Of a DNA stretch of 42,198 bases, positions 11,540 through 17,791 are shown one piece after another. How positions within the stretch are numbered: the first letter of the stretch is position 1; each line of letters begins with the position of its first letter. Source of the stretch: Candidatus Epulonipiscium sp. (GTDB lineage: Bacteria > Bacillota > Clostridia > Lachnospirales > Defluviitaleaceae); NCBI GenBank assembly GCA_012521395.1, contig JAAYML010000117.1, positions 1-42,198 on the forward strand, given 5' to 3'. The notes under the pieces were generated by a model. It made no database searches and was not told where the DNA came from. It worked only from the letters and a program-made list of their open reading frames with translations. The position numbers were made by a program, and so were the translations under genes.

Positions 11540-12376
11540 ATGGCAGTCGTCAATTATTTTGCTTATGGAAGTTGTATGAATGAAAAAGATTTCATAAGGG
11601 ACTTAAAAAAGGCACACTTAGAAAAATCTTATAAAATATTGGGTGTTGGTAAATTAGAAGGTTTCCGACTGGCTTTTACAAGATATGCTTTTACAAGAGG
11701 CGGGGGTGTACTGGATATGATTCCTTCTTTGGGGGATTATGTTTTAGGAGTGGTATACCAGGTTCCTGAAAAAGCATTAATAAAAGTCATTGACCGAAGA
11801 GAAGGGGTTTCAGGAGGGGCTTATTACAGAGATCTTATTGAAATTGAATTAAATGGTGAAAAAATTAAAGCATATACTTATTTTGTTAAGAATAAACTGG
11901 AGCATGAAATAGAGCCATCCGAATCCTATAAAGAGATTGTTTATGAAGCCATGAAAAACATGAACTTTCCTGAAGAATACATTAACAAGTACTTGCTGGA
12001 ACATATTGCTTCTTTAAAAAGAAATGATAATGATAAAGTATCTTATGAAGCAGAAGTATATGACAGTTCAAGCTATCTGGACAGTATGGGCACTTATGTT
12101 ATAGGCATGCCAAAAAGTTTAAGAAATTTATTATCTGTTGATATAGGAGATTGGATTTATGTTCGATATGAAGAAAAAGAACTGAAACTAAAAGTTTATA
12201 AAACTGATTCCAGGCTTTTAGGCAATGGGCAGGCGCCTGCAGATAATCTGCAGTTTCATGTATGTATTCCCAGGCAGGTTAGAGATGAACTTGGTTTGAA
12301 AGAACTGGATGCTTTTCATCGCAAAAATTATCCTGTTTTTAAAAAGAAATTTTCCTGCGTAACCATTTATAAATAA
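11540..12376 (+). CDS. gamma-glutamylcyclotransferase-fold protein with an extra C-terminal domain
   Basis: 278 residues. NYFAYGSCM at the start is the (Y)xYGS substrate loop of the GGCT family, and REG in VIDRREGVSG (about residues 92-101) supplies the expected catalytic glutamate. The fold normally ends near residue 150. Here about 100 further residues follow (YDSSSYLDSMGTYVIG to the end), a beta-rich unit with IPRQVRDELGL that I cannot assign. Family members release 5-oxoproline from gamma-glutamyl or gamma-glutamylamine compounds. The true substrate is unknown. TAAGGAGGA gives a strong start. It is 12 bases after the unknown gene and 18 before an HTH regulator, so probably one operon. Confidence 0.75.
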   Translation: MAVVNYFAYGSCMNEKDFIRDLKKAHLEKSYKILGVGKLEGFRLAFTRYAFTRGGGVLDMIPSLGDYVLGVVYQVPEKALIKVIDRREGVSGGAYYRDLIEIELNGEKIKAYTYFVKNKLEHEIEPSESYKEIVYEAMKNMNFPEEYINKYLLEHIASLKRNDNDKVSYEAEVYDSSSYLDSMGTYVIGMPKSLRNLLSVDIGDWIYVRYEEKELKLKVYKTDSRLLGNGQAPADNLQFHVCIPRQVRDELGLKELDAFHRKNYPVFKKKFSCVTIYK

Positions 12377-13526: not shown

Positions 13527-13583
13527 CCGAAGTTCTTGAAGATTTAAAATAAAGTGAGAAAAAAGAATTAAGGAGGTATGAAA

Positions 13584-13961
13584 ATGCAAAAATACAATGT
13601 TTTTGTTTATGGTACTTTGATGAAAGGATTTAGCAATTACAAGCATTACTTAGAAGGCAGAAGTAATGTCAAATTTTTAGGGATGGCAAAAGTAGAAGGC
13701 TATAGCATGTATCATGTTTCTTACTTTCCAGGGATAGTTCCTGACAAGGGTGAAAGTATTCTTGGGGAAGTCTATCAAGTTGATGAAAAGCTGTTACGGC
13801 AGTTAGATATTCTGGAAGCTGAAGGTCATATGTACATAAGGCAAAAAGAGAGCGCTTATTTGGATACAGGAGAAAAAATCGATGTTTATCTTTACGTTTG
13901 GAATTTACCTGTAAAAGAAAATTGCAAAAAGGTAGAAATGATGCCATGGAGACCTTTGTAA
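13584..13961 (+). CDS. gamma-glutamylcyclotransferase (GGACT-like) family protein
   Basis: 125 residues, the normal length for a single-domain member. VFVYGTLMKGF is the substrate-binding loop, and the glutamate in DILEAEGHMYIR is at the catalytic position. AGGAGG is 7 bases before ATG 13584; the ATG at 13578 abuts the site and is unlikely. Enzymes of this type cyclise gamma-glutamyl amines or peptides to 5-oxoproline plus free amine. It is transcribed separately from the larger cyclotransferase-like gene, after a terminator and a palindrome. Two members of one family within 2.5 kb flank a regulator, which suggests a shared substrate. Confidence 0.8.
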   Translation: MQKYNVFVYGTLMKGFSNYKHYLEGRSNVKFLGMAKVEGYSMYHVSYFPGIVPDKGESILGEVYQVDEKLLRQLDILEAEGHMYIRQKESAYLDTGEKIDVYLYVWNLPVKENCKKVEMMPWRPL

Positions 13962-14921: not shown

Positions 14922-15133
14922 ATTGAACAAGGATTAATAAAGAAACTTTAAGTTATAGAAAAACGAGCTTTAACATAAATTAAATCTTTAAATTTTAAGC
15001 TTTAGGGTTTGTATATTATTTTAAAATTGAAAAAAACTATCTTTATTGTTATCATACTATTGCAGGATATTAAGAATTGTAGCCATATTTGACAATTTAC
15101 AAATAAAATAGATTAATGAAGGATTTGGAACCT

Positions 15134-17791
15134 ATGGAAAGAAAATTAGTAATGGGTATCTTAGCCAATGTTGATGCTGGTAAAACCACCTTATCAGAAA
15201 GTATGCTCTATATAAGCGGAAAAATAGGGAAAATGGGAAGAGTCGATAAACAGGATACATATCTGGATACAGATGAAATTGAAAAAAGCAGGGGAATTAC
15301 TATTTTTTCAAAACAGGCTGTTTTTGAAATGGCTTCCACCCAGATTACTCTTTTGGATACTCCGGGACATGTGGATTTTTCAATGGAAATGGAGCGGACC
15401 CTACAGGTTTTAGATTATGCTATCTTGTTAATCAGTGGTCCGGAAGGGGTAAAAAGCCATACCCTAACCCTTTGGCGCCTTTTGAAAATTTATAATATCC
15501 CCATTTTTATTTTTGTGAACAAAATGGATCAGGAAGCAGCAGACAGAGAAGAATTAATAAAAGCTTTAAAAAGCCAGTTAAGTGACAGATGCATATCTTT
15601 TGAAAAAGACTATGGAGAGGGCTTTTTTGAGGAACTGGCTGTCTGCAGTGAGGAACTGTTAGAAGCTTATCTTAGTACAGGTCATATTGAAAAGGATTTG
15701 ATTAAGGAAAAAATAAAAGCCCGTAAAGTCTTTCCCTGTTTTTTTGGGTCTGCCCTGAGGTTAGAAGGTGTTGAATATTTTTTGGAGAAAATGATTGACT
15801 ATTCCCTTATACCTTTTTATCCGGAAGACTTTGCAGCTAAAGTATTTAAAATAAGCAGGGATGAACAAGGTAACCGTTTAACCCACATGAAAATTACAGG
15901 GGGCAGGTTAAAAGTCCGGGATTTAATTAAAGGCAGTGACTGGGAAGAAAAAATTACTCAAATCCGTATTTATTCCGGTAAGAATTACGAAGCTATAGGA
16001 GAAGTAGCTGCCGGGACAGTTTGTGCCGTAACTGGCCTGAGTAAAACGAGACCAGGTGAAGGTCTGGGTCTTGAAAAAGATTTCAGTAAAGCAGTCTTAG
16101 AACCTTTATTATCATACAGGATTAATTTGCCTCATGGCTACTCTCCCAGAGAAGTTCTGCCCAAACTAAGAGAAATAGAAGAAGAAAATCCTGAACTTCA
16201 TATTACCTGGGATGAGACTTTAGAGGAAATCCAGGCACAGGTCATGGGGGAAGTCCAGATTGAAGTTTTGCAAAGCATTATAAAGAAGCGTTTTAACCTT
16301 GATATTTCTTTTGATGACGGACAGATTGTTTATAAAGAAACGATTGCAAATACCGTTGAAGGGGTTGGGCATTTTGAGCCGCTTGGTCATTATGCAGAAG
16401 TGCATCTTTTACTTGAACCGGGAGAGCCGGGAAGCGGCTTGCAATTTGGCAGTAATTGTAGTGAAGATCTTCTTGCAAGGAATTGGCAGCGGCTGATTTT
16501 AACCCATTTGGAAGAAAAGGACCATAAAGGGGTACTGACAGGTTCTTCGATTACAGATATGAAAATTACTTTAGTGGCTGGTCGTGCCCATAATAAGCAT
16601 ACAGAGGGCGGGGACTTCAGACAGGCCACCTACCGTGCTGTGCGTCAGGGTTTAAAGGAAGCACAATCTATACTTCTTGAGCCTTACTATAGTTTTCAGA
16701 TAGAATTGCCTACCAATATGGTCGGACGGGCTATGACGGATATTGAAAAAATGCATGGGACTTGTGAGATATATAAAACGGGTGAGGAAATGACGATCTT
16801 AAAAGGAACTGCGCCCGTTGCTAACATGAGAAATTATCAAAAGGAACTGACTGCTTATACAAAAGGCTTTGGTAAATTATTCTGTACTTTTAAAGGTTAT
16901 GAGTCCTGTCATAATGCAGAAGAAGTTATTGAAAGAATTAATTACAATTCCGAAGCAGATCCGAAAAATCCCACAGGTTCTATCTTTTGTTCTCATGGGG
17001 CAGGTTTTTATGTTAGTTGGGATAAGGTTAAGGACTATATGCATGTGGAGAGCTATCTGAAAGCTAAAAAGGAAATTGAAGAAAAAATACCGGAAAATAA
17101 AATTCCATCTGCAACGGAAGTCATTAGTTTGGAAGAAATAGATGAAATCTTAGGAAAAACCGTATCCAATCAGGGAAAAGGGAACAAGTGGAAAAAGACA
17201 AAGTCCTCTGTAGAGCGCTATTATGAATCTTTAAGTTCTGGGAATAGACCAACAAAAAAAGAAAAAGCAAAGCCAACCTATTTGCTTGTGGATGGTTACA
17301 ATGTTATTCATACCTGGCCGGAGTTGAAAAAACTGGCGCAAGAGAATATGGACAGTGCCAGAATTAAGCTTTTAGATATCTTAAGTAATTATAAAGCCAT
17401 TAAAAAATATGAAATTATTGTTGTTTTTGATGCTTATAAAGTTAATGGTTACAGGGAAAAAATCATGGATTATCATAATATTCATGTTGTCTTTACAAAA
17501 GAAGCCCAGACGGCAGATGAATATATAGAAAAATTTTCTTATGAGCACAATAAGGATTACAATATTATTGTGGCGACATCGGACTATTTACAGCAGATTA
17601 TTGTAAGGGGCAGTGGAAGTACCCTGCTGTCTGCCAGAGAATTAAAAGAAGAAGTAACTAGTACCCGTAAGAGTCATATTGATAGATATATAGATTTACA
17701 AGACAGGCGGACTGCCTCCCTGGAAGAGTCTATATCAAAAGATACAAAATCCAAAATCAAAGCAATTAAAAAACCACTAAATAATCAATAA
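15134..17791 (+). CDS. Tet(M)/EF-G-like ribosomal GTPase fused to a YacP/Rae1-type NYN nuclease domain
   Basis: About 885 residues. The N-terminal part is a translational GTPase: P-loop NVDAGKTT, switch I RGITIFSK, DTPGHVDF with the catalytic histidine, NKMD and GSAL, followed by domains II to V in Tet(M) order. The domain IV tip (about 485-496) reads HNKHTEGGDF and not the SPVSTPADF of true Tet proteins. A charged linker (about 640-713) leads to YLLVDGYNVIHTWPEL, VVFDAYKVNGY, AQTADEYIEK and VATSDYLQQ (about 715-845). This matches YacP/Rae1, a PIN/NYN nuclease that cuts mRNA in the ribosomal A site, and all the acidic residues expected for metal binding are present. AAGGA precedes ATG 15134; ATG 15116 in frame lacks a site. 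Probable role: ribosome rescue or mRNA cleavage coupled to GTP hydrolysis. Confidence 0.85.
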   Translation: MERKLVMGILANVDAGKTTLSESMLYISGKIGKMGRVDKQDTYLDTDEIEKSRGITIFSKQAVFEMASTQITLLDTPGHVDFSMEMERTLQVLDYAILLISGPEGVKSHTLTLWRLLKIYNIPIFIFVNKMDQEAADREELIKALKSQLSDRCISFEKDYGEGFFEELAVCSEELLEAYLSTGHIEKDLIKEKIKARKVFPCFFGSALRLEGVEYFLEKMIDYSLIPFYPEDFAAKVFKISRDEQGNRLTHMKITGGRLKVRDLIKGSDWEEKITQIRIYSGKNYEAIGEVAAGTVCAVTGLSKTRPGEGLGLEKDFSKAVLEPLLSYRINLPHGYSPREVLPKLREIEEENPELHITWDETLEEIQAQVMGEVQIEVLQSIIKKRFNLDISFDDGQIVYKETIANTVEGVGHFEPLGHYAEVHLLLEPGEPGSGLQFGSNCSEDLLARNWQRLILTHLEEKDHKGVLTGSSITDMKITLVAGRAHNKHTEGGDFRQATYRAVRQGLKEAQSILLEPYYSFQIELPTNMVGRAMTDIEKMHGTCEIYKTGEEMTILKGTAPVANMRNYQKELTAYTKGFGKLFCTFKGYESCHNAEEVIERINYNSEADPKNPTGSIFCSHGAGFYVSWDKVKDYMHVESYLKAKKEIEEKIPENKIPSATEVISLEEIDEILGKTVSNQGKGNKWKKTKSSVERYYESLSSGNRPTKKEKAKPTYLLVDGYNVIHTWPELKKLAQENMDSARIKLLDILSNYKAIKKYEIIVVFDAYKVNGYREKIMDYHNIHVVFTKEAQTADEYIEKFSYEHNKDYNIIVATSDYLQQIIVRGSGSTLLSARELKEEVTSTRKSHIDRYIDLQDRRTASLEESISKDTKSKIKAIKKPLNNQ

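Follow-up and report, generated by a model that had tools for sequence, protein, structure and literature searches.

The gene of interest lies in a 42,198-nucleotide stretch of DNA from Candidatus Epulonipiscium sp. (contig JAAYML010000117.1; hereafter, the window). A preliminary description, made from the sequence alone, reported one reading frame in which a Tet(M)/EF-G-like translational GTPase continues into a nuclease domain of the Rae1/YacP type. This raises three questions: (i) is the fusion genuine, (ii) is its product a tetracycline-resistance protein with an added RNase, or the organism's own Rae1, and (iii) what might a GTPase contribute to an mRNA nuclease?

The frame (15116..17791, + strand, as are all features given below; 891 codons, or 885 from Met7) is single and uninterrupted, and profile scans for EF-G/TetM and NYN domains located both within it. 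Five EF-G-type Pfam domains are present: (i) the GTPase (G) domain, at residues about 11–229 (15152..15802; GTP_EFTU, PF00009, E 2.6e-48), (ii, iii) EF-G-like domains II and III, at residues 239–399 (15830..16312; EF-G_D2, PF22042, residues 239–312, and EFG_III, PF14492, residues 329–399, the latter scoring slightly under its cut-off), (iv) domain IV, at residues 402–517 (16319..16666; EFG_IV, PF03764), and (v) domain V, at residues 520–600 (16673..16915; EFG_C, PF00679). Together with the full set of G motifs—NVDAGKTT (18–25), RGIT (59–62), DTPGH (81–85) and NKMD (135–138)—these domains bear out the reported EF-G-like GTPase with intact GTP-binding motifs. Alignment places a C-terminal extension next, at residues 601–648 (16916..17059), carrying the motif NPTGSIFCSHGAGFYVSWD. 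The charged linker that follows, recognised from its composition and length, occupies residues 649–721 (about 73 residues; 17060..17278) and leads, as had been described, into a complete NYN_YacP/Rae1-type nuclease domain at residues about 722–885 (17279..17770). The match to PF05991 (E 5.6e-52; 176.5 bits against a gathering score of 24.6) covers positions 1–165 of 166, and every motif quoted earlier is present: DGYN (726–729), VFDA (770–773), TADE (799–802) and ATSD (820–823).

Position 15134 (Met7), where the preliminary description begins the gene, is probably a better start than 15116, because a Shine-Dalgarno-like AAGGA precedes this ATG (15119..15136 for the two together) within AAGGATTTG, a block that is invariant among the aligned upstream regions of relatives, and because the relatives' homology to the protein begins only at about residue 8–10. 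A consensus scan predicts a promoter-like sequence, TTGAAA-17-TATCAT with an extended TG (15027..15055), 80–110 bases upstream of the start; in the upstream alignment, this block can be recognised in front of the fusion gene in several of the family's genomes. A search of the short leader for a tet(M)-type attenuator found no terminator and no significant fold, and an Rfam scan of the window gave no match. The downstream neighbours encode sugar transport and chemotaxis proteins, and since the flanking genes vary from relative to relative, the fusion gene appears to stand alone. Elsewhere in the window, two gamma-glutamyl cyclotransferase (AIG2-like) genes lie near each other (11540–12376 and 13578–13961); a relative of the second adjoins the fusion in genome G001 (52% identity).

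Is the fusion genuine? An assembly or sequencing artefact joining two genes, a concern raised with the preliminary description, is excluded by full-length, single-frame orthologues in six further genomes of its family (71–80% identity) and by third-position GC that crosses the junction without a step (0.34 / 0.30 / 0.31). The fusion is far from absent in relatives: full-length fused orthologues also occur in distant families, in dozens of genomes outside its own family. Identical architecture is found on megabase-scale contigs of independent genomes (G003, G029, G360) and in an annotated RefSeq replicon as WP_320690501.1 of Monoglobus pectinilyticus (862 aa, 53% identity over 95% of the query), which carries, as a name only, the NCBI label 'translation factor GTPase family protein'. 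The probability of an artefact is thus negligible.

A taxonomic survey, in which fused and free forms were told apart by open-frame length, points to a wide distribution. NYN_YacP occurs in 349 of the 392 genomes of the order sample, and the best 150 places listed comprise 65 fused and 85 free copies; across the phylum sample, the fusion was counted in 11 of 149 genomes. A single-protein scan of genome contigs added a relative in a Lachnospiraceae MAG. No viral relative was found when IMG/VR was scanned with the fusion, and the defence-system models gave no match. Near-full-length matches (50–51% identity) do occur in two faecal contigs filed as 'Bacteriophage sp.' (MT835514.1, 15279–17798; MT835563.1, 5397–7958); the one of the two that was examined is an unverified, unannotated record, and both are probably bacterial DNA filed as phage. 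Genome G361 seems to hold two fused copies (G361:C56 and G361:C10; L179 and L187), with open frames of 1006 and 930 aa.

The architecture has been noticed before. Atkinson 2015 (PMC4342817), in the portion of the paper available, reported a YacP-like NYN RNase domain on 'Tet' proteins of ten Clostridiales, classed these proteins as Tet and proposed a role in resistance, with the RNase acting on rRNA or tRNA. The window's protein shares both the domain combination and the broad taxonomic group, and almost certainly belongs to this set. The statement that no characterised fusion was known therefore stands for function, but not for architecture. Rae1 was first described in 2017 (cited in PMC6613710), and so the 2015 study could not draw the link to it; nor does its available portion mention that free Rae1 is replaced, that the fusion arose once or that the domain IV tip differs.

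The published proposal supplies the main alternative: that the fusion confers antibiotic resistance, acting as a ribosomal protection protein of the Tet type to which an RNase directed at rRNA or tRNA has been added. In its favour, the closest PDB sequence matches of the GTPase part are TetO and TetM (30–31% identity), and TetM, TetO and Tet36, which have the same five EF-G-like domains, are the nearest solved structures. Three sequence features set the protein apart from them. Firstly, identity to the three is only 28–31%, and the NCBIfam Tet model NF012153 gives 413.7 bits against a cut-off of 775; four related proteins, fused or standalone, score 408–439, and the TetM control 875.4. The EF-G model, TIGR00484, likewise falls short (292 bits against a cut-off of 659.4), and the window's genome carries a separate EF-G of its own. 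In the GTPase tree, the family lies apart from TetM, TetO and Tet36 with high support, in an analysis that includes three Tet classes only and carries a long-branch warning. Secondly, the domain IV tip is different: GRAHNKHTEGGDFR (residues 489–502; 16580–16621) replaces Tet loop III, with GRAHNKHTEGGDF standing in place of YYSPVSTPADF at equal length. An alignment of 51 fused and 16 standalone members with TetM, TetO, Tet36 and EF-G rows shows that H-x-K-H-T-x-G-G-D-F-R is conserved in fused and standalone members alike; the full fused tip, G-R-A-H-x-K-H-T-E-G-G-D-F-R, is strongly conserved, and that of the standalone members nearly identical. TetM Pro509, which touches C1054 (PMC8161019), aligns to a conserved lysine, Lys494 of the fusion protein. 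In TetM, domain IV loop III displaces tetracycline; Tet(M) nonetheless tolerates S508A/P509A/V510A (PMC4750697), and thus the loop sequence alone does not exclude Tet activity. Thirdly, the extension at residues 601–648 is common to fused and standalone members and absent in TetM, TetO, Tet36 and EF-G; the nuclease domain is a further difference from the Tet proteins.

By sequence, then, the GTPase is not a tetracycline-resistance protein: the 'Tet(M)-like' label holds for the fold, but not for the sequence, which fails the Tet cut-off and is without Tet loop III. The low Tet score, the different conserved tip and the extension argue for a distinct task at the decoding centre rather than tetracycline release. 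Against resistance there is also the apparent replacement of a housekeeping nuclease by the fusion (below), and the finding that just 2 of 1270 matched plasmid records cover 80% of the query, one of them a 518-kb Monoglobus replicon. We consider the resistance explanation very unlikely.

The nuclease half points to Rae1. Its nearest solved structures are those of B. subtilis YacP/Rae1 (5MQ8/5MQ9, E 2e-26), and its acids D726, D772, E796, D801, E805 and D823 match Rae1 D7, D53, E76, D81, E85 and D104 (5MQ9). In an alignment of 53 fused and 54 free rows, all six are kept in >95% of the fused rows. The link to Rae1 drawn in the preliminary description is therefore strengthened, both by the retention of every Rae1-conserved acid and by the displacement of free Rae1 from genomes. 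The two forms share the complete PF05991 domain and, judged by replacement, the same genome-level role. They differ in setting: free Rae1 is a protein of about 170 aa encoded in an rlmB-sigH operon, while the fused form makes up the C-terminal end of an 891-aa GTPase encoded elsewhere, at an unrelated locus. The position between rlmB and sigH is typical of free rae1 (yacP), lies outside the definition of the PF05991 protein family, and is not shared by the fusion gene.

Could the nuclease instead act on rRNA or tRNA, in maturation or quality control, with the GTPase helping to assemble or recycle ribosomes? The original proposal for NYN domains was a role in maturing rRNA or tRNA (cited in the available portion of PMC4342817), free rae1 adjoins the rRNA methylase gene rlmB, and the two genes belong to one genetic pathway in B. 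subtilis (PMC6613710). However, B. subtilis Rae1 is an A-site mRNA endonuclease (PMC6613710, PMC12320835) whose residues are retained in the fused domain, and we regard a stable-RNA substrate as highly improbable.

The usual locus of the free gene records its fate. In G005, of the window's own family, the order is cysS-mrnC-(membrane protein)-rlmB-yacP-sigH (neighbour names assigned by reading translations). The window's genome (L202) keeps cysS, mrnC, rlmB and sigH in this order, but the last two are separated by about 200 bases that hold no yacP, and so the missing gene is not an assembly gap; the fused copy is the only NYN_YacP in this genome. The same rlmB-sigH adjacency without yacP is seen in other fused genomes. 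Among the best 150 places listed for the order sample, an intact free copy accompanies the fusion in 2 of 65 fused genomes (G152 and G176, each with yacP between rlmB and sigH). In two others, the free gene is decayed: G051, of the same genus as G152 and G176, has a yacP that is interrupted by stop codons and lacks an internal segment, and G026 retains stubs of 32 N-terminal and 16 C-terminal residues between rlmB and sigH. These are fossils of the replacement. The decayed sequences lie at G026:C11, ~1198.3 kb (L193 / L203), and G051:C6, ~18.3 kb (L192 / L204).

The phylum sample gives a similar picture. A free copy is present in 0 of 11 fused genomes versus 74 of 138 non-fused genomes (one of the 74 scoring under the family cut-off; Fisher p 0.0007, uncorrected for relatedness). 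On an EF-G tree of 30 genomes picked for having at least one form, a choice that favours opposition, random pairing almost always left all seven independent pairs on supported branches opposed, with free Rae1 absent where the fusion is present (sign test, median p 0.016); the informative part of this test is the fused rows without the free gene. The link is not absolute, since G152 and G176 keep both forms and free Rae1 also occurs away from rlmB (f5 g68, G320). Taken together, these comparisons show that the fusion replaces free Rae1. Replacement shows that the nuclease function is retained, not that the GTPase serves the nuclease. The architecture is real, widespread and already reported; what is new is a fairly strong case for regarding the protein as the organism's own Rae1 rather than as a resistance factor.

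Both halves of the fusion also exist separately. A tree of 107 nuclease domains unites all 53 fused rows in a single clade (SH-aLRT 93), which sits inside the free Rae1 sequences of the same order. The tree built from the GTPase halves agrees: all 51 fused rows group together (support 100), and their successive nearest outgroups are standalone GTPases. The latter have open frames of 641–687 aa and 41–49% identity to residues ~10–647 (one at 38%), and were found in 18 genomes, all 18 of which have free Rae1. The trees indicate a single fusion event between a free Rae1 and a standalone GTPase, both of which occur side by side in relatives. This 'Rosetta stone' pattern suggests, without proving, a functional link between GTPase and Rae1; taken alone it carries little weight, given how common free Rae1 is where the fusion is absent. 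The fusion is patchily distributed over the 30-genome EF-G tree, requiring at least 10 changes; together with a single origin, this implies horizontal spread between Clostridia and relatives, the fusion moving between classes as a unit. As far as the available literature shows, three points are new: the single origin of the fusion, the replacement of free Rae1, and a GTPase that by sequence is not Tet.

Two further observations concern unfused copies. Besides free Rae1 in the rlmB operon, G005 has a broken standalone GTPase (L074, G005:C12:261745-263711; 46–49% identity) with a frame change and a stop. Solo free Rae1 copies away from rlmB (L078 in G320, L079 in G178) are sister to the fused clade in the tree, and so represent either relatives that have moved or what is left of an early split.

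What, then, might the GTPase do? EF-G and Tet proteins place domain IV in the ribosomal A site. A Tet-like domain IV would compete with Rae1 for the decoding-centre A site; the two are therefore unlikely to occupy it at once, and one would have to hand it over to the other. We think it rather probable that the fusion is the organism's Rae1 mounted on a ribosome-binding GTPase, cutting in the A site after recruitment by such a hand-over. The GTPase part would act as a dedicated EF-G/Tet-type factor, with a decoding-centre tip peculiar to it; it would find or clear a ribosome with a vacant A site, binding in the A-site region while neither tRNA nor factor is engaged. GTP hydrolysis would then release the GTPase from the A site, while the flexible linker (about 75–100 residues) keeps the nuclease near; the tethered nuclease would enter the vacated site and cut the mRNA, clearing the paused message for decay and tmRNA-type rescue. 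Ribosome binding, GTP use and A-site cleavage are here presumed from knowledge of the two families. GTPase-driven delivery of the nuclease to stalled ribosomes, as proposed in the preliminary description, is a plausible hypothesis, and so is a GTPase that chooses the ribosome or sets the moment of cleavage through sequential hand-over rather than by binding together with the nuclease.

The linker bears on this proposal, and on a competing one in which the GTPase is a convenient tether: it would have its own job, EF-G-like or antibiotic-protecting, and merely keep the nuclease near ribosomes, with GTP hydrolysis exerting no control over cleavage. By simple arithmetic, the 73-residue linker has a contour length of ~250 angstroms, an ample reach. 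Among 28 members measured, the spacing from GAGF to DGYN is 88–154 residues (median 100), in linkers rich in K, E and S; such length and variability would suit a tether, as would the occurrence of the GTPase without a fused nuclease and of free Rae1 without the GTPase. However, many families have retained this one fused architecture, which has moved between classes as a unit, and the linkers hold more in common than expected of an inert tether: the class E-E-[ILV]-[DE]-x-I-[LIF]-x-x-T recurs in 39 of 51, where shuffled linkers would give 0.06, the pattern having been derived from the same linkers in which it was counted and shared ancestry adding to the count. The motif (EEIDEILGKT, residues 673–682, 17132–17161, in the window's protein) mostly lies 46–69 residues before DGYN; speculatively, it may be a docking helix. 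We judge the tether explanation unlikely, and continue to favour recruitment by sequential hand-over.

A bolder version, which we advance tentatively as a possibility short of an expectation, is that the standalone and fused GTPases constitute an undescribed subfamily of translational factors that direct Rae1 to particular ribosomes, the fusion being one GTPase-timed, ribosome-dependent mRNA nuclease that has repeatedly displaced free Rae1 after horizontal transfer. If this is true, the fusion would have made a one-protein pathway out of a two-protein pathway in many Clostridia. Its repeated takeover from free Rae1 suggests that a specific GTPase is the natural partner of Rae1, and recruitment, GTP use and cleavage would be separable by point mutation in a single protein. 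It also argues that many bacterial proteins resembling tetracycline-resistance factors may be better viewed as ribosome quality-control factors, a view that bears on the annotation of resistance genes.
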